Source: Pseudobacteriovorax antillogorgiicola (GTDB lineage Bacteria; Bdellovibrionota_B; Oligoflexia; Oligoflexales; RGVZ01). Taken from it: a DNA stretch of 64,000 bases. Position numbers and translations under genes: made by a program. The notes under the pieces were generated by a model. That model did not search any database. It saw nothing but the letters and a program-made list of their open reading frames with translations, and was not told the origin of the DNA. The stretch lies in assembly GCA_945898195.1 (NCBI GenBank), contig CAMDHM010000011.1, positions 1-64,000 of the forward strand. Direction: 5' to 3'. Below are positions 3,365-46,407 of the stretch, one piece after another; position 1 is the stretch's first letter, and every line of letters begins with the position of its first letter.

Positions 3365-5311
3365 CTACTTGCGCATAAAATTGACCGCACGAGAATTTTG
3401 ACTATTAACCTGACCGATGCCTCCCTGATTTTCAGAATGATGGCTGGCGATTTCAGATGCCAGAGCCAGCGCACGCTCATCCTGGGGATTGACCTGCAAA
3501 ATCTTTTGAACAGCGGCCCTCGCCTCGGTAAATTTCCCGCCCTTAAAGTAAGCACCTGAAAGAGCATAGAGCATGTTGAAATCGAGTGGGTGCAATTCCA
3601 GATACCGATTTAGTGCATTCTCGATCGCCGTGAATTCGTTTCGCTCGTATGAAAGTTTGATCAGCGAAAATATCGCAGCCGTGTTGTTTGGATTCAGCTC
3701 AAGGGACTTCGTGATCCATTTAGTAGCCTCTAACAACTCACCCATGCCGTGAAAAGCAAGGCCAAGGCCTAGATTTGGCATTTCATCATCAGGCGATAGG
3801 CTGACCGCCTTCTGAAAGTTGATCACCGCTAAATCATAACTATTTTTGAGCAGTGCAACCGTACCAAGACCAATGAACCCCTTGGCGCAGAATGGGTCCA
3901 ACATAGTTGCCTTAATGTATGCCGCCTTACCTGACTCGCCGTCGCCAAGTTTAGTAAAGGAATCTCCGATCAGACGATGCAGGGTCGCCTCATGGTGAGC
4001 TGGAACTCCCTGTTTCCGCAGCATTTCTTCGATCAAACTAATCGCCACCAGATACTGCTTTGATTGAACTTTCGTTTCGATGTCGTCGATCTGAGCATCA
4101 ATTGTACCCACACGCACAGCCTGCGAGATGTTGGTGATGTCCCGGAAGACCTGCCCCATCTCTTCGCCGACCTTTTCCTTGCTGTGAATCTTGCTTGCGA
4201 CGTCCTGATTCTTCTTTACGATATCGTTCGTAATTGCGCGGGCGGAAGATGCCTTCTGGATTCCCTCTGCAAGACTGAAAGGAGACCCAGAGCAAAAATC
4301 GATCCGATGCTTACCAATGTACTCTTCAACCATGGGTGAACGACTCGCAATCACTGGAATCCCAAGGGTCATCGCGGTCATCAACCGATACGGGTCGCCC
4401 TCAAGTCGGTCACGGTTTGAAATGCATGAAATGAACAATGCGTCGGTTGCCTGAAGGACTGTGTTGATACCGTCCCGCTCCGGGGCCACGTAGATAGCAC
4501 GTTGATCAATTCCGAGCTGCACCAGCCGGTGGCGCAACTCTGTGGCAAAGCTACCAATCCCACAAAATACCAGGCGCAACCGGCGAGCCAGGCTGGCATC
4601 TGCGTCAATTGCGATGCGCACAGCATGGGCTAAATCATAGAGCCCCTCTTCCCACTCAACTTGCCCCATGTGGGTGATTACATATTCGCTTTCGGCGAGG
4701 CCCAAACGGGACAAGGCTTCTGCACGAGTTTTCGCAGACCGCTCCACCCGCGACTCAACCCAAGGGCGCATCGTGAAGATACGAGAATCGTCAATGCCCT
4801 CGAGAAGAAGGGCCTGTCTAGCCGCTGAAGTTTGAACGATGAATGCGTCGGCGACATTGGCAACTTCGTTGCGAATCGCCCGAATCTGATGAACATCAGC
4901 GCCTGGGAATGGGACGAGATTATCCACCCACGCTACAAGATGGAAGTGCCTGCGCCACTTAGCTTTTACGGCTTGATAGGCGTAAAGGCCTAAGCGCTCC
5001 TTGATCACCACAACATCAAAATTGACCAAAACATTTTCCAGGCCCGGAAGATATCCTGGATTGTCGTCGTAATCCTTTAGGGCAATGCACTCTAGATCCT
5101 GAAACCAACTCGTTTGGGTCAAATAACCGCAGATGGATTCCGATGCCACGACCTTTATTTCGTATTGATCACGGAGAAGCATAAATTGGTCGATTTCCTC
5201 GACCGTTGGAAGATTTCCGTACACCAAGGCTAACTTTGGCCGACTGGTTTGCTGGGAATTCATTACTTTATCTCCTTCAAATGACCAAAAACAAATCGCT
5301 ATTGGACTCAA
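3365..5311 (-). CDS. Glycosyltransferase (GT4-like) with C-terminal TPR repeats
   Basis: 648 aa; glycosyltransferase-like core (GIPVIASRSPMVEEYIG) followed by TPR motifs (A...LGLGLAFHGMGELLEATKWITKSLELNPNN). Confidence 0.75.
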   Translation of the reverse strand: MSPIAICFWSFEGDKVMNSQQTSRPKLALVYGNLPTVEEIDQFMLLRDQYEIKVVASESICGYLTQTSWFQDLECIALKDYDDNPGYLPGLENVLVNFDVVVIKERLGLYAYQAVKAKWRRHFHLVAWVDNLVPFPGADVHQIRAIRNEVANVADAFIVQTSAARQALLLEGIDDSRIFTMRPWVESRVERSAKTRAEALSRLGLAESEYVITHMGQVEWEEGLYDLAHAVRIAIDADASLARRLRLVFCGIGSFATELRHRLVQLGIDQRAIYVAPERDGINTVLQATDALFISCISNRDRLEGDPYRLMTAMTLGIPVIASRSPMVEEYIGKHRIDFCSGSPFSLAEGIQKASSARAITNDIVKKNQDVASKIHSKEKVGEEMGQVFRDITNISQAVRVGTIDAQIDDIETKVQSKQYLVAISLIEEMLRKQGVPAHHEATLHRLIGDSFTKLGDGESGKAAYIKATMLDPFCAKGFIGLGTVALLKNSYDLAVINFQKAVSLSPDDEMPNLGLGLAFHGMGELLEATKWITKSLELNPNNTAAIFSLIKLSYERNEFTAIENALNRYLELHPLDFNMLYALSGAYFKGGKFTEARAAVQKILQVNPQDERALALASEIASHHSENQGGIGQVNSQNSRAVNFMRK

Positions 5312-30403: not shown

Positions 30404-33400
30404 TCATGGCACCCCGGAATATTTTTTGACCCACCAGTCATTATTTCCTGAGGCAGACACAGCTCCGTAGCCCCAGCCAACGGCATAAACATTATCAATA
30501 TCGTTGACACCCGCTGAGATCGAAATCGATTGAATGCGGTCGGCTCCATTACCCGTGCCATTGACCGTTTTATTCCAGTTTACGGTGTCCTCTGTGCAAG
30601 ATGAGGAAAACTTCCTGAGCCACCAATTTTCATTTGATCCGGTTTTATATCCGCCAACATAAATGTTGTCCATGCTGTCCAGGGCCACTGCAAATGCCTC
30701 TGATACTGCAGAGGCATCTGGGTGAATCGCACAAACGCTGGCAAATGAAGTGTTCATGACTTCAACCCATGGATCGGGTGTTGTGCCTGCATATTCAGAC
30801 GTCTTGCCCGCCACCACGAGTTGACCGCTCGAGTCCAATGCAATGCTATAGGCTTCATCGCTTGCGCCCCGACTGACCAGACTATGATTCAGCAAGGCGC
30901 AAGTGTTGAGGTTAAACTCACCAAGTGCCCAACCACGCGAGGTGACGCCAGCATCGGAATAACCTGCCACATAAATCCGGGAGGTCGCATTTCGAATCAC
31001 AAGAGCTCGGATCCGATCATCGGTACGTTGATTTTCAAGATCGGCGGTCTCTGCGCAGGACAGAACACCAGTCGAAGAATATTTAACAATTCGCCAATCG
31101 TCACCGGAACTAGACGTCACCGACCGCTTCGAGTGACCACCGACAACGACAGAGCCGTCAGATGCAATGGCAATAGAATACGCAATATCATCGTCATTTC
31201 GGCTTCCATTATACGTCTTATCCCAATTGGATATGTCTTCCACGCCGGTCGAAGAATATTTTTTGATGAACCAGTCGTTATTTGATCCGTTGTATTTTGA
31301 TCCGACGACAAAAACACTATCTAAAGCCCCAACCGCGACACCATAGGCAACGTAATTATTGGACCCATCCCCAATCGTGATATCAAGGCTGGCATCCTCG
31401 ATCCCATGCCGTGTGTAACGCTTTACCCTACCCCGCGTCACGCCGCTGGTGTCATACCCAACCACAACCAGTCGTCCCTGACCGTCCACTGCACTGGCCA
31501 ACGCTTGAGCGGCATTCGAACCATTGAATGTTACATTTTTGTTCCACATGTCTGTCCCTTCCGGTGCAGACCATGTCAGGCTACCCGTCGCCGCGCTGAC
31601 CTGTTGATTGCCTGCGAGGTCCGTTGCCTTAACGCTGACCGAATAGGTTGCCCCGTTCAGAAACATCGCATCATCCACCGGAAGGCTCCACGTCGTGGAG
31701 GTAGCAGATCCAACCAAATAGTTGGGACAAGCTGAACTAAAATCTGTCTTAGAATTATTCAGACAATTCCCGTTAAAGCCTTCCACCGAAACATTAACCC
31801 CACTGATACCAGCCGATGGAGACGCATCCGAAATCGTGCCCTCTAAATTTGTTGTGGATCCAGGTGTACTGGAAATGGAGAGAGACCCAATTGAAGTTAC
31901 GATTGCTTCGGGACTCGCAGTATCAACGAAGAAGGAGCTTGAAACACCGTATGCCGCAGGATTACCCGCAATATCTGTAACCTTAATGCAAACTTTCCAA
32001 AAACCGTCGCCTGTAATTGCTGCGGCATTAGAAAATGGTTTTACATCCGCACTGTCAAAGACGGCGGTAGCATTGCAGGTGGCTCCCCCCGTAATCACCG
32101 AATAGTACGTGGCGTCAGCACCAATTGAACTCGGATCCCCCACAATGGCCAATGGACTTGCCCGATCCGCAAAAGAAAGAAACCCATCGGCTGCCACACC
32201 CGCCAAAGACACGGAAACAAAACTGGCAGGCGTTGTATCAACAACAAAATTTGCGCTAGAGCCGTAGGCATCATTTCCCGCGGCATCCAAAAGTTTTACA
32301 CAGATCTTGAATGTCCCGTCGGTGGCAAAGGCGCCGTCATTGGCCAGTTGAACGGTCGACGCATAGGTTAGAGAATTGTTGCAAGTCGCCACCGAGGAAA
32401 CCGCGGCGTAGCTTGCCGTGGAACCGACTTCTGCGACAAGCGAGTCCGCAACGTTGGTGATCAGCGTACGCTCCGCCGCATTCAGGAAACCATCCGACGC
32501 GGCATTTGCTAAAGCAAGTGACGTAAACGACGGGCCAGCAGTATCGCGCACCATGCTTGGGCTTGCATGATACGCAACGTTACCAGCGGCATCTACAGCC
32601 CTTACACACACGACATAGGTGCCGTCAGAATTAAACGGCGAAATGCCAAATGCATTGGCCAAAGGAATTGACCCATTCCACCCCGACCCAGAGGAACAGG
32701 AGGCGGAGCTAAGGGCTAAAATGTAGGTTACCGTTGCCGACTCATTCAATGATGGCGTTGACAAAACGGCAGACGAACTCGAAAGATCGCTAACGCCAAG
32801 CCTGCCATCTGCCGCAACACCAGCAAGGGCAAGCGGCGCTGATAACCCTGGAAAAATTGTGTCGACAATAAAATTACCGGAAGCTCCATAGGTTATATTT
32901 CCCGCCGTATCGGATAATTTAACGCACACCTTCCATGTATTATCAGCGGTAATTCCTGCGTCATTTGCCAATGGTGCCGACAACGACCAACCATTGAGGG
33001 ACAGACATTCTGAGACCGCTAGCGCAACTTTATACTCGGTCGAATTCTGCCCAGACGCGGTCAATGTTCCCGTAATTCCACTTGTCGCAGAGCGTTCAGA
33101 TGCATTCACATATCCATCCAAGGCCGTGTTTGCCAAAACCAGTGCCGTAAAAATCGGCAGAGTCGTATCGAGCGTAAACGAACTAGTCGACCCGTACGTC
33201 AAATTGCCCGACGAATCGACCAATCGAACACACACCTTGTAGGACCCATCCCCACTAAAATCGGAACTATCAGACTTAGGCATTCCGCCAAAAGTTAGCG
33301 GTGTGCCACACGTTGTCGCACTGCCAACGAGCTTATAATCTTCCGTTACATAGCCACTCGCTACAAGACTTCCTGCTAGGTTTGTTCCAGAAGAAAACTC

Positions 33401-36400
33401 TGACCCAGAAAGGTAGCCATCCGCCGCGCCATTCACCAAGGCAATTGACGTGAAAATCGGTCCTGAAGTATCGACCGTGATATTGGCCGAACTATCGAAG
33501 GCAATATTTCCCGCACTATCTATCATTTTTACGCAAACCTTCCAGGTTCCATCTCCAGTTATTGCCGATGTAGTTGCCGATGGAATTGATGAGCCGAAGC
33601 CCACCGCTGCAGAGCACAATCCGGTCGAAACTGTGTACTCGATTGAGGCCACCTCAGTCACACTGGCAACGGCTACGACCGCATTGCCAGAGGTCCGATC
33701 AGCGGAATTCAAATAGCCATCGGCGGCGGGTACTTGAAGGGACAGAGCCGACGACAATGCGGGAGCCACCGTATCTCGAATGATTTCGGCTGATGCCCCA
33801 TAGGTCACATTCCCGCCAACATCTGCAAGTTTAACGCAGACCTTCCAGGCCCCATCGCCGCTAAATCCAAGGTCGTTGATCAAAGGAATTGAAATTCCGT
33901 ACCCAGTTGCGGATGAGCATGGGGCGGCATACAACGCAATCGCGTATTGCGTGGTGAAAGCGCCGCTACTGATGACGCTTCCAGCCACTGCCGCACTCGA
34001 AGCCTTCTCTCCGTCGTTGATGTAACCATCAAGCGCGGAATTAGCCAACGAAACTGAAGTGAATACTGGTCCAATCGTATCCAAAATAATTGTTGTGGAA
34101 GACGCATAGGCGACGTTCCCGGAGTTATCTTCAAGTCGAATACAGATAAAGTAGTTCTGGTCCGAGCCAAAATCAGCACTCACAGCCGTCGGAATGCTGC
34201 CCCCGAAGGATAAGGCAACGCCACAGGATGTTGACGAGGGCACAAGCTTATAGGCTGCAGCGAGCAGATCCGGGCTTGCCGACAATGGCCCTGCCATCGG
34301 CAACGCAGACGTCCTTTCGGCGTTGATAATATAGCCATCGGCAGCATCATTGATTAAAGGAAACGTGGTTAGTGCCGGAGCGGTGGTGTCCACGGAGACA
34401 CTGGTAGACGTTGCTCCATAGCCGACATTTCCTGCCAAATCAGTAATCTTGACACAAACTTTCCAGAGCCCGTCAGCGTTAACCGCGCCCGTATTAGCAC
34501 CCGGCAGTGACGCAGATACGAAAGACCCACCACTGCAAGGCGAGTTGGATAGCATCGTTAAATATTGAAAGGTTGAACTCTCACTGGCAACTGCAGCTGT
34601 CACAATGGCCGTACTTAATAGCCGCTCCGAGGAATTCAAATACCCATCTGAGGCAGGTCCGACCCAGGCAAGACCACTCGCTAACATCGGCCCAACGGTA
34701 TCACGCACCATCGATGGAGATGACCCGTAGCCTGTATTTCCAGCGGCGTCCACCATCTTGACGCAAACTTTCCACGATCCATCACCAGTAAATCCTGAAT
34801 CACTTGACCCGGGTCTCGTGGCCGAATATCCACTCTGCGCGGCACATGCAGTGCTAGTCGACGCAACCACATAGGTAATTGTCGCCGATTCGCTGGCCGT
34901 TGCAGAAGACGTCACAACATCCGAACCGACGCTTTCAAGGCTGTTGATGTAGCCATCCGCGGCATCATTTGCGAGAGAAATTGAGCTCAACGTTGGCGGC
35001 GATGTGTCGAGAGTCAAATTAGACGAGCTTGAAAACCCGACATTACCGGCATTATCTATGAGACGCATACAAATCACGTAGGTTCCGTCTGCAGTAAAAT
35101 CAGCACTATCCGCACCGGGAATTCCACCAGCAAAGCTTAAGGCCGATCCGCAAGTTGTGTTTGTTGGAATCAACTTATAGGTCGCCGCGGCAAGGTCGGA
35201 AGATCCAACCGGCACACTCCCCATCGCAGCAGTACTTGACGCGTGTTCGGCAGAGCTAATCACACCATCCGTCGCAGCGGCATTGGCAAAAGCCATGTTT
35301 GCTGACGGTGAAACGGTATCGACGGTTAAGTTGCTTGCGGACGATTCGTAGCCGATGTTTCCTGCGGAATCCGTAATTTCAACACAACCTTTATATGCAC
35401 CATCGCTGTTTAATAGCGCAGAATCCGCCAGCGGAATCGATGTCGACGTATAGGTCGCAGCAGAGCAGGCGCCGGAACTGGCGATGAGAAGGTATTTGTA
35501 CGACGATGACTCGCTACCAATGGCGGCAGTTAAAATTGGAACGGCTGCGAGCCTCTCCAAACCATTCAGGAAATTGTCCCAGGCAGACCCCGTCCAAGCA
35601 AGTCCGCCGGCCAACGTCGGCGCCACTGTATCTCTTGTGATCGTCGCGGATGAGGCATATGACGTGTTCCCGGCACTGTCCATCAGCCTAACACAAACCT
35701 TCCACGACCCATCTGCGGTCATTCCTGCATCGTTTATTTTTGGAATCGAGGAAACGTATCCGGAAGTCGCAGAACAAGTGGCTGATCCTGCCACAACAAC
35801 GTAATCGGTTGCCGTCGCGCCACCCGACGAAACGGAACCAATGAGATCATTCACGGCAGATTTTTCAACATTATTAATGAAGCTGTCTGACGCTTCATTT
35901 GCCAGGGTTATAGCGCCGATAAAAGTCGGACTCGTCGTATCAAAAACAATTGTGGGAGATACCGAAAAGCCAACGTTCCCTGCCGCATCCACAACCCTCA
36001 TGCATACCTTATAAGAACCGTCTAAGGTGAAATCACCACTGTTTGCTGCAGGTATCGATGATCCAAAAGTAATCGATGGGCCACACGACGTGCTAAGCAA
36101 GATTAACTTATAGCTGATGGCGGAGAGGGACTCATTACCGATCGGGGCCGAGACCAAAGCGAGGGCATTTGACGAAAACTCAGCGGCATTTATTAATCCC
36201 CCTGTAGCAGCGTTGATCAGGCTTGTCGTGGCTGTCGGGGGGGCTGTGTCCAGCACAAATGATGCTGACGAAACATAGGATTTATTTCCAGCTAGATCCG
36301 TCATTTCCGAGCAGATTTTATAGCTTCCATCCGCTCCAAAATCTGCGCTAACTCCCGAAGGAATCGTTCCGCCATATCCGCTAGCTATAGAGCATGATTC

Positions 36401-39400
36401 TGCCGCCGAAATCAAAATATACTGATAGGACGATGATTCGTTCGCCACAGGGGCCGTCGCGATTGCTGTGATATTGCTGCGTTCGGCGCTATTTATATAG
36501 CCATCGGTGCCATCGCCGGTCAACGAGAGGCCACTGACTAGAGTCGGGGCAGTCGTATCTCGAATAAAGTTTAGCGACGCGCCGTAGCCACTATTACCAG
36601 CCGGATCGACCATTTTCACACAAACTTTAAATGTCCCATCCGTTGCAAGTGCGCTGTCGGCCGTCGTGGGAATCCCACTGGCATATGGCGTAACGCTGCT
36701 GCAAGTTGCCGAAGATGAGGCGACGATATAGGTGATGGCCGACGTTTCTGAGGCGGTCGCCGCAGAAATCAAATTCCCCGTCTCAGCTTTTTCAGAATCG
36801 TTGATGTAGCCATTCGCCGCCTGATTGTCCAGGGTGGCACTGGTCAGCGAAGGGGCTGCCATATCAAGGGTAACATCTGGCGATGATATGTAACTTACAT
36901 TTTGCGCATGATCGAGCACCCTTGCGCAGATCACGTAAACACCATCCGTAACCATGGCCGCGCTGTTGGCGGCTGGGACCGCATCACCAAACCCGGTTAG
37001 CAATGCGCCACATGTCGTGGCCTTCGGAATTAACTTATAGGTAAACGATTCAATGTCGGCATCGCCGAGCGGTGGATCCGACATACCCAGAGAATTCGAA
37101 ATATGTTCTGCGGCACTAATTAGCCCATTCGCCGCCGCGGCATTCACCAAAGTCATGGTCGCCGCGGGGGCAAGTGTGTCACGCGTTACATTGGCAGATG
37201 ATGTGGCATAGGTCGTATTTCCCGCAGTGTCGGTCATCACCGCGCAGGCCTTATAAGAGCCATCCGCACTAAATGCAGCGTGGCTTGCCGATGGCGGCAA
37301 AGCATTGTAGGTCAAAATGGCATTACAGGTCCCAGCCGCAGCCACGATAGAATAGGCAATGTCCGCTGTCTCGTCTGGCACTCCAGCCGTCACCAGCGCG
37401 GTCGATCCATTTTTCTCGGCGTCGTTGACATATAAATTGGTGGCGTCACCCGTCCAAACCAAACCGGCCGATATTGCAGGAAATCTCGTATCTCGAATAA
37501 AGTTTAGCGACGCGCCGTAGCCAATATTACCAGCCGGATCAACCATTTTCACACAAACTTTAAATGTGCCGTCCGTTGCAAGTGCGCTGTCGGCCGTCGT
37601 GGGAATCCCACTGGCATATGGCGTAACGCTGCTGCAAGTTGCCGAAGATGAGGCGACGACATAGGTGATGGCCGACGTTTCTGAGCCGGTTGCCGCAGAA
37701 ATCAAATTCCCCGTCTCAGCTTTTTCAGAATCGTTGATGTAGCCATTCGCCGCCTGATTGTCCAGGGTGGCACTGGTCAGCGAAGGGGCTGCCATATCAA
37801 GGGTAATATCTGGCGATGATATGTAACTTACATTTTGCGCATGATCGAGCACCCTGGCGCAGATCACGTAAACACCATCCGTAACCATGGCCGCGCTGTT
37901 GGCGGCTGGGACCGCATCACCAAACCCAGTTAGCATTGCGCCACACGTCGTGGCCTTCGGAATTAACTTATAAGTGAACGATTCAATGTCGGCATCGCCG
38001 AGCGGTGGATCCGACATACCCAGAGAATTCGAAATATGTTCTGCGGCACTAATTAGCCCATTCGCCGCCGCGGCATTCACTAAAGTGATGGTCGCGGTCG
38101 GTGGAACGGTATCGACCGTTAAGTTACTTGCCGAGGACCAATAGCCGATGTTTCCAGCGGAATCAGTAATTTCAGCACAACCTTTATAGGAACCATCACT
38201 CGTAATGTTCGCCGTATTTGCGTTCGGAACCGATGTGTTGATGTAGGTTGAAGCAGAACAAACCGCTGCCGACGGGATCAGTAGATAACGAAAGTTTGAA
38301 GCTTCGTTAGCAACAGCAACCGTTAGAATCGAGGCAGAACCAGACCTATCCATAAGGTTCAAATAGCCATCGGCCGCTGAACCAAACCATACGAGGCCAC
38401 TCACGTAATTGGGTTCTACCGTGTCGCGAACAACAACGGCTGACATCGCGTAGCCAACATTCCCTAAGGTGTCCGTCATTTTTGCGCAGACCTTGTAAGA
38501 TCCATCAGTGGCAAGAACAGGATCTGAAATTGCGACCCGATGCCCAACGTAGGACGACACTGAAATGCAGTCTGATGCTGATGTTGCTGCGGCATAGGAC
38601 ACATTAGACGTCGGTTCATTTGGAGCAACGACAGCGCTCAATTCAAGAAGCGAATCTTTATCAGATCTTTTAATGAACCCGCCGACCGCTTCGTTTGCCA
38701 ACGTAAACTGCGGAGCCGTCGGAGCGGTGACATCAACGATAAAATCTGCAGAATAATCAAATGCTATGTTACCAGCTTGATCCATCGCCTTGACGCAGAT
38801 CTTATAGGACCCGTCGGCCGAGAACGAACCTGATTTGACCAGCTCACCGACGGCACCCAAGTAGGTTTCCATCGAACAGTCCGTCACGGAGGGGACTCCT
38901 TTATAGTAGAGTGCGGAAGCACCCGTCACACTCGCTGGGCCATGAACCACGCTATTGGCAGTCCGAAGCGCGATATTTATCCCGCCGCTAGGCCCTCGAA
39001 CCCCTGAAACAATTAATGGAACAGCATTGATCGTCGGAGGAATATTGTCGACGACCCAAAAAAAATCAGTCGGGATTAACTGCTCGTTGGTTGCTGATAT
39101 TTTCCCAAGCACACACAATCTATGTGTGCCATCAGGAAAAGAAGACCCACTTAAGGTTGACGCAATAGAAGTCCACGAAGACGGAAATATTGCGCCGCCA
39201 CAATTCGCGCTCAACGTGATGACATATTTGTACTCGGTAACGCCATCACCACCAACTGTGACAGAAATATTTCTATTTTTTGTGTAGGCTCCGGGCGTAT
39301 TTGCCAGAACTGCCACCGCACGTTTTGGTGTTGTTACCGTGGTCATCGCTCCTGGCCCGGAATATGTCGGCGGAGATTTTGAATCCGCAGCACAAACGCG

Positions 39401-40369
39401 AATCGCATAGGTTTTATTTTCATCAAGCGCACTTAGTTGCGTGGTGTATTCGTAAAGCGTATTTCCAATTGAGTCGGTCGTTGGGGTCGCTGATGTTTCC
39501 GTCGCGGTGGCATCAAATGTCGACCCACAAAGCGGTGTCGTTGGACCGACGCCGTACGCGACCGAGAAGCCGTAGTTGGATATTTTTTGGGCACGCCAGG
39601 TGACCGTCGCCCTATCGGGGTAGACCGCGTCCGCGGCAACCGAATCTGGGTCAACCGGAGGCGGAGTGTAGGTTGCATAGCCTGCCGGATTGCCGTTACT
39701 AGCCAAAGCCATAACGACACCAACATCCCCAGATCGAACCCTGAATGACGCCACAAGATTTCCATCACCATTCGTGCTGGCGCTTGCACCCATCTGACTC
39801 AAACGAAGAAAATGCTTTACCGGAACAGTTGCTCCAGATTCCCTAGCCTCCCCATAGTCCACAAGGAGTATGACCGCCTTGTAGATTGAAGCCAGCTTGG
39901 CACCCGTGACTCTAAATTCAAAATCTCGTGCTGCTGCCGTCCGCTCTAAAATTGCCTTTGTATCCGTAACGCGGAGGCGAATTGGCAGGCTGAGAAGCTT
40001 TAACGACGGCGAGTCAGTGATTTCGCCGGCAAGGTCCGTGAGAAGGGCCTGATAATTTTCTTGAAACGTACCGGAACGAATCGTCACTGATGTCGTTGCA
40101 AGCTCAATGGTGAAGTCTTCGCCTGATTTCCCCTCAGCCAATCTCGACAGTCGTCCCAAAGGAGCTTCCCCGGTTGTTCCGCCCGCCGTTGAGCCTCCAG
40201 TGGCTCCAGTGGCTCCAGGATGACCATAGCTGGACGTGGATGGGGCGCCGTCTCCCGAACTTCCGGATCCGCCACAGGCATTTAAAATTAAAAGAACAAA
40301 AAAAACCAAACCGGCAACGATCGCCTGGTTGGCGTGCAAAAACGCAGGTTTTTGACCATGCCTATTCAT
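30404..40369 (-). CDS. Giant repetitive lipoprotein with Ig-like tandem repeats and a delta-60-like C-terminal domain
   Basis: 3321 aa; lipobox LILNAC-GG; about 23 units starting DT.xP and containing D.AGN; C-terminal GQLVVAGKTSEYAG...SIALDSSGQ-type repeats. Confidence 0.92.
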   Translation of the reverse strand: MNRHGQKPAFLHANQAIVAGLVFFVLLILNACGGSGSSGDGAPSTSSYGHPGATGATGGSTAGGTTGEAPLGRLSRLAEGKSGEDFTIELATTSVTIRSGTFQENYQALLTDLAGEITDSPSLKLLSLPIRLRVTDTKAILERTAAARDFEFRVTGAKLASIYKAVILLVDYGEARESGATVPVKHFLRLSQMGASASTNGDGNLVASFRVRSGDVGVVMALASNGNPAGYATYTPPPVDPDSVAADAVYPDRATVTWRAQKISNYGFSVAYGVGPTTPLCGSTFDATATETSATPTTDSIGNTLYEYTTQLSALDENKTYAIRVCAADSKSPPTYSGPGAMTTVTTPKRAVAVLANTPGAYTKNRNISVTVGGDGVTEYKYVITLSANCGGAIFPSSWTSIASTLSGSSFPDGTHRLCVLGKISATNEQLIPTDFFWVVDNIPPTINAVPLIVSGVRGPSGGINIALRTANSVVHGPASVTGASALYYKGVPSVTDCSMETYLGAVGELVKSGSFSADGSYKICVKAMDQAGNIAFDYSADFIVDVTAPTAPQFTLANEAVGGFIKRSDKDSLLELSAVVAPNEPTSNVSYAAATSASDCISVSSYVGHRVAISDPVLATDGSYKVCAKMTDTLGNVGYAMSAVVVRDTVEPNYVSGLVWFGSAADGYLNLMDRSGSASILTVAVANEASNFRYLLIPSAAVCSASTYINTSVPNANTANITSDGSYKGCAEITDSAGNIGYWSSASNLTVDTVPPTATITLVNAAAANGLISAAEHISNSLGMSDPPLGDADIESFTYKLIPKATTCGAMLTGFGDAVPAANSAAMVTDGVYVICARVLDHAQNVSYISSPDITLDMAAPSLTSATLDNQAANGYINDSEKAETGNLISAATGSETSAITYVVASSSATCSSVTPYASGIPTTADSALATDGTFKVCVKMVDPAGNIGYGASLNFIRDTRFPAISAGLVWTGDATNLYVNDAEKNGSTALVTAGVPDETADIAYSIVAAAGTCNAILTYNALPPSASHAAFSADGSYKACAVMTDTAGNTTYATSSANVTRDTLAPAATMTLVNAAAANGLISAAEHISNSLGMSDPPLGDADIESFTYKLIPKATTCGALLTGFGDAVPAANSAAMVTDGVYVICARVLDHAQNVSYISSPDVTLDMAAPSLTSATLDNQAANGYINDSEKAETGNLISAATASETSAITYIVASSSATCSSVTPYASGIPTTADSALATDGTFKVCVKMVDPAGNSGYGASLNFIRDTTAPTLVSGLSLTGDGTDGYINSAERSNITAIATAPVANESSSYQYILISAAESCSIASGYGGTIPSGVSADFGADGSYKICSEMTDLAGNKSYVSSASFVLDTAPPTATTSLINAATGGLINAAEFSSNALALVSAPIGNESLSAISYKLILLSTSCGPSITFGSSIPAANSGDFTLDGSYKVCMRVVDAAGNVGFSVSPTIVFDTTSPTFIGAITLANEASDSFINNVEKSAVNDLIGSVSSGGATATDYVVVAGSATCSATSGYVSSIPKINDAGMTADGSWKVCVRLMDSAGNTSYASSATITRDTVAPTLAGGLAWTGSAWDNFLNGLERLAAVPILTAAIGSESSSYKYLLIASSGACSAATYTSTSIPLADSALLNSDGAYKGCVEITDSAGNIGYESSASNLTVDTVSPSANMAFANAAATDGVISSAEHASSTAAMGSVPVGSSDLAAATYKLIPTNTTCGSALSFAGGIPGADSADFTADGTYVICMRLIDNAGNVGFSSSSNLTLDTSPPTLSSISLANDAADGYINSLESVGSDVVTSSATASESATITYVVASTSTACAAQSGYSATRPGSSDSGFTGDGSWKVCVKMVDAAGNTGYGSSPSMVRDTVGPMLASGLAWVGPASDGYLNSSERLLSTAIVTAAVASESSTFQYLTMLSNSPCSGGSFVSASLPGANTGAVNADGLWKVCVKITDLAGNVGYGATSTSVSVDTTAPALTTFPLINDAADGYIINAERTSALPMAGPLSASPDLLAAAYKLVPSSTSCGVALSFGGSIPTAVSADFGSDQNYFICIRLEDNSGNVAYASSTTIILDTIGPVFTSVSLANSALDGYINDGEKASSAAVAGSVISSGAFTTQYAIALYAAPCSSATGYGISIPLINDLGFSGDGAWKVCVKLADVGGNVTYGASAEIIRDTVAPALSSALSLQVPAADGYLNSADRTSGNAVVAVASVTEVASIEYTVSTGLCSAAVGFGSSIPSATTSAITGDGTWKVCVKMIDSAGNIAFDSSANITVDTSGPIFTSIALVNGAADGYLSGSEFSSGTNLAGSLVASGYVTEDYKLVGSATTCGTPLTFGGMPKSDSSDFSGDGSYKVCVRLVDSSGNLTYGSTSSFTLDTTLPIFTALVLANTALDGYVNASERSATSGITGTLTASGQNSTEYKVALAVSECLSLNGWSLSAPLANDAGITADNTWKVCVKLSDTAGNITYGASGNFIVDTIFPGLSAPLALAGVAADGRLGVSDLSSSSAVLSTPSLNESATVTYILALSSASCSSGSGWNGSIPLANAFGISPFNSDGTYVVCVRAVDAAGNVAYHASPSMVRDTAGPSFTSLALANAASDGFLNAAERTLITNVADSLVAEVGSTASYAAVSSVATCNNSLTYASTVQLANDGAFATDGTFKICVKLLDAAGNDAYGSSANFVVDTTPASFVSVSLAGVAADGFLSFADRASPLAIVGDPSSIGADATYYSVITGGATCNATAVFDSADVKPFSNAAAITGDGFWKVCIKVTDIAGNPAAYGVSSSFFVDTASPEAIVTSIGSLSISSTPGSTTNLEGTISDASPSAGISGVNVSVEGFNGNCLNNSKTDFSSACPNYLVGSATSTTWSLPVDDAMFLNGATYSVSVKATDLAGNQQVSAATGSLTWSAPEGTDMWNKNVTFNGSNAAQALASAVDGQGRLVVVGYDTSGVTRGRVKRYTRHGIEDASLDITIGDGSNNYVAYGVAVGALDSVFVVGSKYNGSNNDWFIKKYSSTGVEDISNWDKTYNGSRNDDDIAYSIAIASDGSVVVGGHSKRSVTSSSGDDWRIVKYSSTGVLSCAETADLENQRTDDRIRALVIRNATSRIYVAGYSDAGVTSRGWALGEFNLNTCALLNHSLVSRGASDEAYSIALDSSGQLVVAGKTSEYAGTTPDPWVEVMNTSFASVCAIHPDASAVSEAFAVALDSMDNIYVGGYKTGSNENWWLRKFSSSCTEDTVNWNKTVNGTGNGADRIQSISISAGVNDIDNVYAVGWGYGAVSASGNNDWWVKKYSGVP
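36554..37165 (-). repeat. Recently duplicated segment, copy 1 (partner 37487-38098)
   Basis: About 16 differences over ~612 bp by eye; offset exactly 933 bp = 311 codons. Confidence 0.9.
37487..38098 (-). repeat. Recently duplicated segment, copy 2 (partner 36554-37165)
   Basis: See copy 1. Confidence 0.9.
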
Positions 40370-41116: not shown

Positions 41117-42211
41117 ATGTTGCAAGCAAAAATAAACGTCCACCAGCTACCAGTTCACACACCGTTTGCCATTGCCACGGGGACCATGCAGGCCGCGGAC
41201 TGCGCGATTCTCGCGTTAGACGACGGTTGTGGAAATATTGGCCTTGGCGAAGCCGCACCATTTTCTGCTGTAACCGGGGAAAACCTGCAGGCAACTGCAG
41301 ATGCGATAGCGAACCTTTGCACAACGATTCAAAAATTTTCTCCGGAACAGGCCCTCAAAATCCTGGCCCTCGAAAGTGAAAACAAAAATATTCCCTCGAG
41401 CGCCTTGTGTGCCGTGGAATCTGCCGTTTTGGACCTCATTGCTAGGCGGCTGGGACTACCATTATGGCGCCTATTTGGCTCACCAAAACTTCCCTCTGGA
41501 ACGTTCTGCCCAACGCCGATCGACACCGACATCACCGTAACCGTCATGCCGCCAGAAAAGGTTCCAGCATTTTTGGATAAGTTTTCGGGCCACGGATTCC
41601 ACACTTTTAAGGTTAAGGTTTCGGGAAGGGTCGATGCAGATACGGAATCGGTTCGACAAGTGATCAGTTGGGCAAAAAAGAAAAATCGGCTAGCTCACAT
41701 AATTCTTGATGGCAATCAGGGTTTTGATTTCGAACGTGCCAAACGACTTCTTTTGAATTTGGCGAATCTCGATATTATTCCGCTTTGTTTTGAGCAGCCG
41801 TTAATTAAAAACGATCTCCGTGGCCTGGCGAAACTCTCTCAGTCAACATCCGTACCAATTTTACTTGATGAATCCGTTACCTCGGTGGACGAAGTCTTGC
41901 GCGCCCACAGTGCCGGGGCTGGCTCCATGATTAACATCAAGATCACCAAGTCCGGCGTCATCGAGTCCCTTCGCATGATTACCGCCGCCAAGGCACTTGG
42001 CATGGGATTAATGATTGGAGGGATGCTTGAAACGGAGATCGCTATGGGATTTTCTCTTCACATGGCGGCCGGCCTGGGGGGCTTCGACTTGATCGACCTT
42101 GACACCCCATTTTTTATTGATCGACGCCTGACCCTATCCAGTCCATGGCATAGCCCATCAGCTTCACTGACTATTTCGGGTGTTCGGGGCTCTGGACTAA
42201 CTATTTCCTAA
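41117..42211 (+). CDS. Enolase-superfamily dipeptide (L-Ala-D/L-Glu-type) epimerase
   Basis: 364 aa; FKVKVSG, DGNQGF, CFEQPL, LLDESV, NIKITKSGVIESL, GGMLETEIAMG. Confidence 0.82.
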   Translation: MLQAKINVHQLPVHTPFAIATGTMQAADCAILALDDGCGNIGLGEAAPFSAVTGENLQATADAIANLCTTIQKFSPEQALKILALESENKNIPSSALCAVESAVLDLIARRLGLPLWRLFGSPKLPSGTFCPTPIDTDITVTVMPPEKVPAFLDKFSGHGFHTFKVKVSGRVDADTESVRQVISWAKKKNRLAHIILDGNQGFDFERAKRLLLNLANLDIIPLCFEQPLIKNDLRGLAKLSQSTSVPILLDESVTSVDEVLRAHSAGAGSMINIKITKSGVIESLRMITAAKALGMGLMIGGMLETEIAMGFSLHMAAGLGGFDLIDLDTPFFIDRRLTLSSPWHSPSASLTISGVRGSGLTIS

Positions 42212-42270: not shown

Positions 42271-43842
42271 GTGAGCGAGAATTCCACATTGAGAGCTGCC
42301 ATTTCCCTCGTTGCTCTCTCTGGACTCCTTGGCTGCTTAAAGACCAAAGATGCCGGCGTAAAAACCCTCGATAACATTGAAACACTTGGCCCATTAGAGT
42401 TCACAGAGTGCGCCGGAACCTACAATTTGCACCCCATGGCCACGCAACTTGCGCTACCCCGCCACCTGCTGCAGGCCGTTCAGTCCGTGCCAGAAAAACT
42501 GCAACAGTCCTTCTTCGAGGACCTCCATGGACGCATCGAGGTTTCGTCAAATTTAGCCGGGATCTGCTGGCCTGACGAATCGCACCGCCCAGCTCGCGAA
42601 GATGAAGTCCTCGGCTGCGTGCGCCAGTATGGAAACACCGATCGTCCCCTGGTGATTCACCTTCTCGCGACAACACCGGCCAAGGAGGCATATTGGCTTC
42701 TCCTTCGCTTCGGTTTTATCATGTCCAATCAGGTCCAAAATCGAAATATTCCACTCACCGGTGAAGTCACTTTTTGGGGAGCCACTGGCAGCGCCGCAGG
42801 TCAGACCAACGAGCGAATCGCGATCGCTTTTCTTGCTGATGCTGGCAGTCGCGGCACACCGGCAGGCACGGCACTCGAGAAATTTGGAATACCATTAAAT
42901 GCGACCCTAGCCGCCACAGATGAAGCACGAGAAATTGCGTGGCGCAGCATCGCCACAGACATTCGCGCGGACTTTGCAACGCGAATCATCGCCGAGGCAT
43001 TTCACTCCCGTTACTGCACAGCTGAAACCCGCAAATCCATGTCAGCGCGTTACCCACAAACCAGTCAATTATTTGAGATGGTCGCCGCCGATCTAGAAGG
43101 CCGCGCCTTTGCTCTTGCCAGCAATTCAGACGTCGGCAAAGCATCCTCCACTTGGAATGGCTGGTATAAAACCTACGACGGAGCTACCCAATCACGGCGC
43201 GCTCGCGGAGACGATATGGGATCGATGGCACGGACCAAGCTAGCCCAATCGATTGAGGCCCGGCTTAGGGGATCAGATGCTGAGCAGTCCTACCGCCTGA
43301 TGGCGACGAACAAAATGGATATCGACATGATGCAATTACTTAAATTCCTCTTTCAAGCCTTGAGCGGACTCTCGTCCGGAAACTCGGGGATGCCGCAAGG
43401 AATGCTCGGGGGGCTTGGTGGTGGAAATTTGCTACCTGGATTTCTTCCACCCGGAAATCTGCCCATTGGACCGATGCCCATGGGACCGCAACCTGGTGGA
43501 ATTCTCCCCATGTCCGGGAGTGCCGACGCAGAAGCCAAATCCGCCTTCGACAGTGGTAACCGGTATCGCCAACAAAATGGACTGCAGCCACTACAATGGA
43601 GCGATACCATCAGCACAGAGTGTAATGCTCAGGCTCAAGCCCAGATCGCTGGGGGAATGAACCATTGGTTGGTGCCACACCCGAATTCAAATGCCGAAAA
43701 TATTGCGTCAGGACAGACCACCGGGTCCGAGGTTGCCACCGCTTGGTACAACTCCCCTGGCCACCGGGCGAACTTACTCGGCAGTTACACCCAATCAGCA
43801 GTTGGTCACAGCAATAATGAATGGTGTCAGAGGTTCAAATAA
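42271..43842 (+). CDS. CAP/SCP-domain lipoprotein
   Basis: 523 aa, GTG start; lipobox LLGC; C-terminal AENIASG...VATAWYNSPGHRANLLG CAP signature; Gly/Pro/Met-rich linker. Confidence 0.88.
   Translation: MSENSTLRAAISLVALSGLLGCLKTKDAGVKTLDNIETLGPLEFTECAGTYNLHPMATQLALPRHLLQAVQSVPEKLQQSFFEDLHGRIEVSSNLAGICWPDESHRPAREDEVLGCVRQYGNTDRPLVIHLLATTPAKEAYWLLLRFGFIMSNQVQNRNIPLTGEVTFWGATGSAAGQTNERIAIAFLADAGSRGTPAGTALEKFGIPLNATLAATDEAREIAWRSIATDIRADFATRIIAEAFHSRYCTAETRKSMSARYPQTSQLFEMVAADLEGRAFALASNSDVGKASSTWNGWYKTYDGATQSRRARGDDMGSMARTKLAQSIEARLRGSDAEQSYRLMATNKMDIDMMQLLKFLFQALSGLSSGNSGMPQGMLGGLGGGNLLPGFLPPGNLPIGPMPMGPQPGGILPMSGSADAEAKSAFDSGNRYRQQNGLQPLQWSDTISTECNAQAQAQIAGGMNHWLVPHPNSNAENIASGQTTGSEVATAWYNSPGHRANLLGSYTQSAVGHSNNEWCQRFK
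43743..43838 (+). repeat. Direct repeat copy 1: 3' end of the CAP-domain gene
   Basis: 96 bp identical to 44730-44825 except one substitution (GAA vs CAA codon). Confidence 0.95.
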
Positions 43843-43946
43843 AAGTTCCTAAAGGCTCAGTGACGCACTGCCGGACGCTTTTGAATCCGAGGTTGGTCTA
43901 ATTCAAAGTCCGACATCCATTCAGCATGGGATTGCCTCTAAACCAA

Positions 43947-43974
43947 CCTCGGTATATACTGGTATATACCGAGG
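43947..43974. promoter_or_regulatory. Perfect palindrome, candidate autoregulatory operator
   Basis: CCTCGGTATATAC-TG-GTATATACCGAGG; 13-bp arms, 2-nt spacer, ending 6 nt before the ATG at 43981. Confidence 0.7.
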
Positions 43975-43980
43975 TGCCCC

Positions 43981-44448
43981 ATGTTGTTTCTGGATCGTCT
44001 TGTAAAAGCCTTTGATGACTATAAAGTTCCTTATGCATTGGTCGGGGGTGTGGCCGTCGCGCTTCATGGTGCTCCACGTGGTACCGTTGATATCGATATC
44101 GTAATCAGACACTCAGAAAAATTTTTTAAAAACTTAGAGAGCTGCATGAAGGAGCTTGGGTTCATACCTAGATTACCGGTCAAGGCCGCAGAGGTTTTTA
44201 AGTTTAAAGATGAATATATTAAAAAAAGAAATTTAATCGCCTGGAGTTTCTATAACGCAATGAATCCTATCGAAGTCGTGGATGTTATTCTGACTCATGA
44301 TTTGAGGGATATGAAATCGGTTTCGAAAAAATTTGGTTTGACTACCTTGAAGGTGATCGCGATTGAGGACCTTATCGCCATGAAAAAAGCGTCAGATCGA
44401 CCACAGGATCGGGAAGACGTAAAAGTCTTAAAAGGACTTTTGAAATGA
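43981..44448 (+). CDS. Minimal nucleotidyltransferase (MNT/AbiEii-like), probable toxin-type component
   Basis: 155 aa; ALVGGVAVALHGAPRGTVDIDIVI active-site-like motif; 4-bp ATGA overlap with next ORF. Confidence 0.75.
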   Translation: MLFLDRLVKAFDDYKVPYALVGGVAVALHGAPRGTVDIDIVIRHSEKFFKNLESCMKELGFIPRLPVKAAEVFKFKDEYIKKRNLIAWSFYNAMNPIEVVDVILTHDLRDMKSVSKKFGLTTLKVIAIEDLIAMKKASDRPQDREDVKVLKGLLK

Positions 44449-44720
44449 ACGCAAAACGTGGTTCGAAAAAAAACCGACCGGTTCAACTTGCCTCGAAATC
44501 ACAGATTGTCGCGATTGAGGTAGAGGACGTTACTCCGATTGTGGAGTTTCTGGAGCAATTCCGCATTTTAGCAGATCCGCGGGCTCAACATAAAAGCAAA
44601 CTTATCAGCATTAAAATACCTGAGCCACTTCTGGCCGCTTTTCGTTATAAGGCTGACCACGATGGGGTTCCATACCAAACAATGATTAAACGCCTGATGC
44701 TTGAGTGGCTTTCGAAATAA
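44445..44720 (+). CDS. CopG/RHH-like putative antitoxin
   Basis: 91 aa; C-terminal LISIKIPEPLLAAFRYKADHDGVPYQTMIKRLMLEWL RHH-like pattern. Confidence 0.7.
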   Translation: MNAKRGSKKNRPVQLASKSQIVAIEVEDVTPIVEFLEQFRILADPRAQHKSKLISIKIPEPLLAAFRYKADHDGVPYQTMIKRLMLEWLSK

Positions 44721-44729
44721 GTCGAAAGT

Positions 44730-44825
44730 TTGGTACAACTCCCCTGGCCACCGGGCGAACTTACTCGGCAGTTACACCCAATCAGCAGTTGGTCACAGCA
44801 ATAATCAATGGTGTCAGAGGTTCAA
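44730..44825 (+). repeat. Direct repeat copy 2: orphan 3' end of the CAP-domain gene
   Basis: WYNSPGHRANLLGSYTQSAVGHSNNQWCQRFK* without its upstream gene. Confidence 0.95.
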
Positions 44826-44842
44826 GTAAGAGCCCCTCCGAA

Positions 44843-45247
44843 TCACCTTCGCAGGCAGGGTATATTGGCGAAGGCATATGGCTGCCAAATATCCTGCCGT
44901 GTTGCATACAAGGTGCTCCAGGCATTTGCAAAAAATTGTGCCGCAAGAATTTCAGGCCGCCCATTGAACCTGTTGGCCTCTATACAGTCAAATTCAGCAC
45001 CGTCACTGCCAGGAACACAACGCATTGGAATCACTTCCACGGCTGGCAAATCACCGAACCGATAATTCCGATTTATACGGACATTAGCGATTGCGCTGCC
45101 ATTCATGCTCGGAAGCAGCGAAATTTGGTAGCTGCCATTCCAAATCTCGCTCTCCAGAAAGCTCAATGAGGCCTGGCACTGAAACTGGACGGCCTGAGCC
45201 ACACCAGCGAACATCAAACTGAATAACACAACGGTATACTTGAACAT
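44843..45247 (-). CDS. Hypothetical secreted protein
   Basis: 134 aa; signal peptide MFKYTVVLFSLMFAGVAQA; four Cys in mature part. Confidence 0.65.
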   Translation of the reverse strand: MFKYTVVLFSLMFAGVAQAVQFQCQASLSFLESEIWNGSYQISLLPSMNGSAIANVRINRNYRFGDLPAVEVIPMRCVPGSDGAEFDCIEANRFNGRPEILAAQFFANAWSTLYATRQDIWQPYAFANIPCLRR

Positions 45248-45297: not shown

Positions 45298-46407
45298 TTA
45301 AATAATTCGCTCTTTTAGGGGATGGTCAAATCGGTCACGGTAGTCTTCGATCAACTCACGTAAATGGCCGATCGATTTCGCTTTTTTAGTCACCGCCCAA
45401 AAAGCATGGCCAAACATAAACCATCGAGAACCAGTCGCTGCAAAGAAACTGAACTTTTTCAGAGCGTCTTCCGGACGGTCGTTGAAATGATGGTCCAACT
45501 CGTCAATCAAGAACAAACACGCCCGAAAAAACTCCGCGCTCTCCTCGGCGCGGCTTCGCGGTGCACGTTCGCCCTCCCGCCCCATCGGCGACTCCTGCCA
45601 ACCCAAGTCCTCGGCAATCTGCCACAAGATCCAAGGCCTTACTGTTGCCGCGCGGGCCACCATGACTCCATCCACCCCAAAATCCCGCAAAATTGAGACC
45701 GCGTCAGCCGAGGTCTGGATGTCCCCATTGGCAACCACCGCCACCTTGCGGCGCTTTGCAATTTCACTGACAAGTTGCCAGTCTGCTCGCCCTTCGTGCC
45801 CCTGCTCTCTGGTCCGCGCATGGATCGTCAGCCAATCCGCCCCACCCTCTTCCAGGGCCTGGGTGAATTCGTCCAGATAATTTAAATCACAAATCTTGTC
45901 GCTACCTCCGCGCATCTTGACGCTGACGGGTCGGTCCGTACAGGCGCGAACCAAACGCACGACGTCGGCCGCATATTTTGGCTCGCCCATAAGGCGAACC
46001 CCCCAATTATGTTTAAGAACATGGGTTGCCGGGCAGCCCATGTTGATGTCATAGCCCCAGGGACGAAGGGCACTCAATTTGGCGATGCTGGGCGTGATAA
46101 AGCGCTCTTCGTTACCCAAAAGCTGTGGGACAAACAACTCCGCACCGGACTTTTCGCCCTCAGTGCAGCGAAGTTCGGCCGTGGTTTCCAGGCGCTCGCT
46201 GGGCAATCGTCTGGTCGACAGCATCTCTGTAAATATAATGGGATCCAGCCCCTTAGGGGCATAACGCCGCAGCATGGCTCGAAAAGCGACATGGCTGATC
46301 CCAACCATCGGAGCAACCATCACCGGAAACCGGACCCCTAGGGAGGCCATCCGCCCACCAGGCATATCTACGCCTACATTTAAGGTTGATTCAGGGGTGG
46401 GGGTCAT
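45298..46407 (-). CDS. dus: tRNA-dihydrouridine synthase family protein
   Basis: 369 aa; VAPMVGISHVAFRAM, DINMGCPA, KMRGG, TIHARTREQG, VANGDI. Confidence 0.92.
   Translation of the reverse strand: MTPTPESTLNVGVDMPGGRMASLGVRFPVMVAPMVGISHVAFRAMLRRYAPKGLDPIIFTEMLSTRRLPSERLETTAELRCTEGEKSGAELFVPQLLGNEERFITPSIAKLSALRPWGYDINMGCPATHVLKHNWGVRLMGEPKYAADVVRLVRACTDRPVSVKMRGGSDKICDLNYLDEFTQALEEGGADWLTIHARTREQGHEGRADWQLVSEIAKRRKVAVVANGDIQTSADAVSILRDFGVDGVMVARAATVRPWILWQIAEDLGWQESPMGREGERAPRSRAEESAEFFRACLFLIDELDHHFNDRPEDALKKFSFFAATGSRWFMFGHAFWAVTKKAKSIGHLRELIEDYRDRFDHPLKERII

Follow-up and report, generated by a model that had tools for sequence, protein, structure and literature searches.

A toxin-antitoxin cassette enclosed by two copies of a host-gene 3' end, and comparable gene-tail scars around unrelated cargo in related genomes

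Genes of restriction-modification (RM) systems have been described as inserting with long target duplications, on the order of 100 bp (Nobusato et al. 2000; PMC3874152; PMC3031569). An insert that restores the tail of a protein-coding gene has a precedent too, e14 in icd of Escherichia coli K-12. Homology-facilitated illegitimate recombination has been described for competent bacteria and for conjugation (PMC3240628), and it has been invoked for the displaced 3' ends of T6SS/Rhs loci (PMC5361080). In four species or groups, variable segments with flanking direct repeats make up 10-18%, and the repeats are mostly shorter than 30 bp (PMC2884548). Flanking repeats as such are therefore not new, and the unusual part of the locus presented here is its long gene-tail repeats.

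The window analysed is a 64,000-nucleotide stretch of a Pseudobacteriovorax antillogorgiicola genome (G000). In it, a CAP-domain gene is followed by a two-gene toxin-antitoxin (TA) cassette and then by a second copy of the CAP gene's 3' end, within the following arrangement:

41117-42211, plus strand: enolase-superfamily gene, left syntenic anchor (71-72% in the same-genus genomes G001 and G002)
42271-43842, plus strand: intact CAP (SCP/PR1, YkwD-like) domain gene; its 3' end forms the repeat (PF00188, E 1.8e-11)
43743-43850, plus strand: left repeat copy, made up of ~100 bp from the end of the CAP gene and ~8 bp beyond it (from pairwise comparison)
43946-43975, no strand assigned: 30-bp palindrome ACCTCGGTATATAC-TG-GTATATACCGAGGT, perfect, with 14-bp arms, probable TA operator
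43981-44448, plus strand: nucleotidyltransferase (NTase) of 155 aa with a GG...DxD motif, probable MenT-like toxin (PF19502, E 3.2e-7; PF08843, E 9.9e-7)
44445-44720, plus strand: ribbon-helix-helix (RHH) antitoxin of CopG/BrnA type, 91 aa (PF12441, E 1.8e-7)
44730-44837, plus strand: right repeat copy, an orphan CAP tail with its stop codon at 44827-44829 (from pairwise comparison)
44843-45247, minus strand: convergent gene of 134 aa, kept at the locus in G002 (59%) and present as a remnant in G001
45298-46407, minus strand: dihydrouridine synthase (Dus) gene, right syntenic anchor (89% in G001 and G002)

Pairwise comparison of positions 43743-43838 with 44730-44825 revealed 95 identical bases out of 96 at a spacing of 987 bp, exactly as a first-pass annotation of the window had reported. 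The match runs on to 43850 and 44837 (103/108 bases, 95%), and its longest exact run, 76 bp, is far beyond chance. By tblastn, the orphan tail (44722-44826) matched CAP residues 489-523 at 89%. The repeat includes the CAP stop codon and similarity fades a few bases past it; the stop of the orphan tail ends at 44829, 13 bp ahead of the convergent gene at 44843. Searching the whole 2.44-Mb genome with the repeat stretch yielded no third copy. The only ORFs between the copies are the two TA genes, with DUF6036/AbiEii and PF12441 matches, so the annotation's description of an enclosed NTase/CopG-like pair with no recombinase was borne out. Inspection of the insert ORFs and the junctions found no recombinase, no IS end and no end sequence common to the window junctions. 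The genome is a metagenome-assembled draft (46 contigs, 89.5% complete), which would be compatible with an assembly artefact; however, 5 of 108 sites distinguish the two copies, and independently assembled genomes, the 8-contig G004 among them, show the same architecture, making an artefact extremely improbable.

Several other origins of the repeat were rejected. For an IS or transposon, there is no transposase ORF between the repeats and no inverted repeat pairing the insert ends. For an integron attC site, neither copy contains a RYYYAAC...GTTRRRY core, the fold z-score is +0.87, and the repeat encodes CAP residues. For a tRNA-type attachment site, the sole tRNA lies ~13 kb away. Three further repeats were recorded alongside this work. 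One is another inverted repeat, of 14 bp at 93% (43887-43900 and 43939-43952), which falls in the interval from the CAP stop to the operator palindrome. Elsewhere in the window, a 3321-aa secreted repeat protein (30404-40369, minus strand) carries within its length a direct repeat of 610 bp at 97% (36553-37162 and 37486-38095), which suggests recent repeat expansion. In a genome of another phylum (G060:C15, L067), a HicA gene array has similar ~100-bp repeats ~500 bp apart and appears integron-like.

The antitoxin and toxin genes of the cassette overlap by 4 bp. The NTase belongs to the DUF6036 and AbiEii Pfam families (E about 1e-6); residues G22, G23, D37 and D39 are invariant, and GG...DxD is found in every aligned homologue. 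Its predicted structure (pLDDT 90) has its best PDB folds in MenT1 of M. tuberculosis (8an5/8an4), and a profile search matched 8an4 (E 4e-6). MenT toxins are described as extending tRNA acceptor ends (PMC10435456); this activity and the MenT1 fold match suggest by analogy that the NTase is likely a tRNA-modifying toxin. The cassette resembles MenAT and AbiE systems in its NTase fold, its GG...DxD motif and its adjacent antitoxin gene. It differs from them in that the toxin is short (155 aa, DUF6036) and the antitoxin is of CopG/BrnA type and encoded downstream. An RHH homologue lies directly 3' of the toxin gene in 57 of ~79 homologous loci. With a GC content of 0.43, against 0.55 for the CAP gene and 0.515 for the window, the cassette is foreign-looking. 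Carriage of the cassette by a phage or plasmid was rejected, as there was no phage match and the only plasmid-borne matches were genes with 29.5% identity on two plasmids of Acidisarcina.

The palindrome upstream of the toxin gene contains a core word, GTATATAC. In 63 of 78 homologous loci from many phyla, this word is found in the 110 bp preceding the toxin gene. Across 562 kb of homologue loci it occurs 102 times, always at most 400 bp upstream of the toxin gene and never elsewhere, and the window has two sites only, both inside the palindrome. This confinement to the region upstream of toxin genes suggests that GTATATAC is very probably an operator or promoter element common to the homologues. 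Its paired form, GTATATAC-nn-GTATATAC (window 43952-43969; L257-L336), sits 20-30 bp before the NTase start and is unusually constant for a TA operator.

The first-pass annotation had suggested that the cassette brought with it, or itself created, a replacement gene tail. However, a clear gene-tail duplication surrounded the toxin gene in 0 of 80 homologous loci from many phyla, and a direct repeat of any kind bracketed it in at most 3, none of them a clear gene tail. The proposed search for cassette homologues at other duplicated gene ends thus came back empty, and tail duplication is absent at the cassette's closest homologues in the order as well. Because these homologues lack clear tail copies, and because the same scar encloses unrelated cargo in relatives, the duplication is not a feature of the cassette as such, and we rejected a cassette-encoded duplication.

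Roughly ten further loci in related genomes carry direct repeats of 50-496 bp, mostly gene 3' ends, with unrelated cargo inside. The source genes of these scars include fabI, GAPDH, aldolase, tpx and SDR genes, among others, and the cargo includes HicAB, AbiE, ATPase, photolyase and lipoprotein genes; several of the scar gene names were read off translations, without a family search. The individual cases, together with a shorter palindromic repeat pair from a scan of G004, are as follows:

G006: a more distant NTase gene flanked by a 126-157-nt repeat formed from two convergent gene tails (NAD-binding and multicopper oxidase)
G005: a HicA/HicB pair between 72 identical bases from the end of a fabI-like gene
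G020: a HicA gene within a 496-bp repeat at 94%, comprising the GAPDH tail and the head of the next gene
G004: an AAA/DUF4143 ATPase gene within a 50-bp repeat of the last part of an SDR gene
G006: an AbiEi/AbiEii block within a repeated aldolase gene tail
G011: a lipoprotein-like gene within a repeated radical-SAM gene tail
G004, scan: lipoprotein-like genes enclosed by a 280-bp tpx tail
G004, scan: a photolyase-like gene enclosed by a 162-bp repeat at GST/MFS
G004, scan: a 162-aa lipoprotein-like gene within a 99-bp intergenic repeat at 97%
G004, scan: a BrnT/BrnA-like pair within a 40-bp palindromic repeat

The scan covered 1.12 Mb of G004 and was unbiased with respect to cargo, taking repeat pairs 500-6000 bp apart and outside single ORFs. 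It returned 6 direct-repeat pairs, including 2 clear gene-tail insertions and 1 intergenic case, and TA cargo was not shown to be over-represented among them. In 0.4 Mb of G049 there was one candidate gene-tail repeat. An enrichment of the scar in this lineage was not upheld: several cases in ~2 Mb of the family stand against 0 clear cases in ~0.55 Mb of diverse TA-centred loci and the one G049 candidate, a difference that is not significant at this sample size. On G000:C3 (L161) of the window genome, 203 bp from the head of a 320-aa gene (684-886 and 4309-4511, 92%) are copied around a 1066-aa gene. This head copy and the varied cargo indicate that the scar is limited neither to TA cargo nor strictly to tails. 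In G003:C22 (L147), a 60-bp repeat at 93% (1122-1181 and 2824-2883) surrounds an AbiEi/AbiEii-like pair. In the order's draft genomes, many AbiEii matches fall no more than ~2.5 kb from a contig end, a pattern that flanking repeats breaking the assemblies would produce.

The same-genus relatives examined, G001 and G002, retain both syntenic anchors. Gene order in G002 is enolase-like gene, 134-aa gene and Dus, with ~17 bp between the first two; in G001 it is enolase-like gene, remnant of the 134-aa gene and Dus. The apparent remnant (G001:C48, L163; 2590-2740), between Dus and the enolase-like gene, has its start joined to its end by an internal deletion. The CAP gene and the cassette are both absent at this locus in both relatives, so the CAP gene, cassette and orphan tail together form an extra block in the window genome, although with two relatives only, two independent CAP losses are possible. 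This gene order lends no support to the annotation's placement of the orphan tail at the expected ancestral end of the CAP gene. Neither relative offers a true empty site carrying one CAP tail, since the CAP gene itself is missing from both, and our searches found no donor locus in which a CAP gene is followed directly by this cassette. The missing CAP gene would fit an arrival of CAP and cassette as one block with the tail already duplicated, or a tail that is the remnant of a second, deleted CAP gene; in G004, the tpx host gene also lacks a close match among near relatives. However, several other scars lie in genes that are normally core (fabI, GAPDH, aldolase) and were presumably resident, and this block-wise origin seems to us decidedly improbable.

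The origin of the two copies was examined by counting synonymous and nonsynonymous differences in 14 tail or head segments, with a neutral null of 0.28 and a conservative null of 0.44, the latter a rough value under which the functional copy is allowed silent changes only. Pooled, the segments had 60 synonymous and 34 nonsynonymous differences (P 5e-13 against 0.28; P 9e-5 against 0.44). The GAPDH copies differed at 10:1 (P 0.002) and the tpx copies at 9:1 (P 0.004); with GAPDH, its neighbour gene and tpx removed, the excess had P 0.07 under the conservative null. As a positive control, the e14/icd tail of E. coli K-12 gave 10:2 over 165 bp. An orphan left by local duplication would decay regardless of codons, so the near-silent GAPDH and tpx differences point to a tail from another lineage, and in at least these two cases one tail probably has such an origin. 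On the basis of this skew, we dropped the view that all sister cases are plain target duplications. Later allelic recombination with an insert-free strain could also have given rise to the synonymous signal. The coding changes between the window copies are 1 synonymous and 1 nonsynonymous, so import and local duplication are not separable at this repeat. The annotation's idea that the insert brought a replacement tail therefore probably holds for some sister cases, GAPDH and tpx, while the window's 1:1 ratio favours neither side.

Of 10 junctions, 7 have a repeat that stops no more than 20 bp from the stop codon (P about 0.012 for random placement over the stop), as is expected if donor and recipient had only the gene in common. 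At three junctions (NADb/MCO, GST/MFS and GAPDH), the repeat continues into the neighbour gene, and for repeats running through both gene ends a plain target duplication is the simpler account. Such an insertion would begin with a staggered break of ~100 bp at a gene end, filled in on both sides, giving copies from the same chromosome that later diverged. It is a process already described for RM systems (PMC3874152; PMC3031569), and it would accommodate repeats that vary (50-496) around the order of 100 bp, varied target genes, the lack of a recombinase and the intact neighbour genes. Both gene tails are copied in two convergent-junction cases, the fabI/HicAB copies are identical, and the 1:1 changes of the window fit neutral decay. 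However, near-silent differences like those of GAPDH and tpx are not expected in an orphan, unless allelic recombination later replaced one copy, and the repeat ends cluster at stop codons. We thus regard target duplication as a serious but unlikely account. The window shares with the RM insertions a small addiction-type cassette, no recombinase and variable flanking repeats of ~100 bp. It has no RM gene, its cargo is a TA pair, the cargo elsewhere is also non-addiction, the repeats are mostly gene 3' ends, and some copies look as if they came from another lineage.

Tail replacement with synonymous differences is also the pattern of e14 in icd, where the protein-coding 3' end is on both sides of the insert and the copies differ almost only synonymously. 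The repeats could by that comparison be attL and attR of a cis-mobilisable or decayed integrative element whose integrase acted in trans or was lost, and some cargo is indeed multi-gene (L146, ~4.8 kb). However, e14 is ~15 kb long and encodes both an integrase and an excisionase, while the window insert has neither gene. The sister inserts that were inspected showed no integrase ORF either; by eye, a transposase-like fragment was recognised in L146. Furthermore, every case involves a different gene and repeat length, and homologous cassettes elsewhere lack such repeats. An integrative element is thus an improbable source of these scars.

The reading that we favour, with a probability of roughly 0.48, is that incoming DNA bearing a homologous gene end and cargo joined the chromosome at the CAP tail and left the orphan tail behind. 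A self-regulated TA pair would have entered on a fragment in which the CAP gene end was followed directly by the cassette, and this fragment would have been anchored by homologous recombination at the common CAP tail. The other end may have been joined inside the resident CAP tail by end-joining (i.e., homology-facilitated illegitimate recombination), or the fragment may have circularised and integrated by a single crossover. Either would leave the CAP gene intact and followed by the cassette, with a surplus CAP tail ahead of the convergent gene. Codon-level differences support tail import in the GAPDH and tpx sister cases, whereas we infer it at the window, as we do the joining step at every locus. 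The T6SS/Rhs displaced ends are alike in having a homologous anchor at one end, an illegitimate joint at the other, and the old 3' end orphaned downstream. In those loci, however, recombination is anchored upstream of the replaced gene or within its constant part, and the new 3' end is a different one, whereas in the window a nearly unchanged tail is supplied again and an independent operon forms the cargo. More generally, it is possible, if doubtful, that the family of the window genome often gains small segments without a recombinase, anchored on a homologous gene 3' end and leaving a tail scar; such gains would be cargo-agnostic, with addiction cargo countering repeat-mediated loss.

Small accessory genes, TA pairs among them, appear in genomes without a visible vehicle. 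Together, these data make a moderate case for a tail-anchored, recombinase-free route of acquisition. Tail scars with synonymous differences are a readable trace of the joining, which makes one-sided homologous acquisition testable by sequence alone. The scars are also ready-made excision repeats, through which the retention or loss of a cassette can be measured, and the 76-bp exact repeat should permit RecA-dependent loss of the window cassette. TA cargo would penalise such repeat-mediated loss, which may explain why the insert has persisted.
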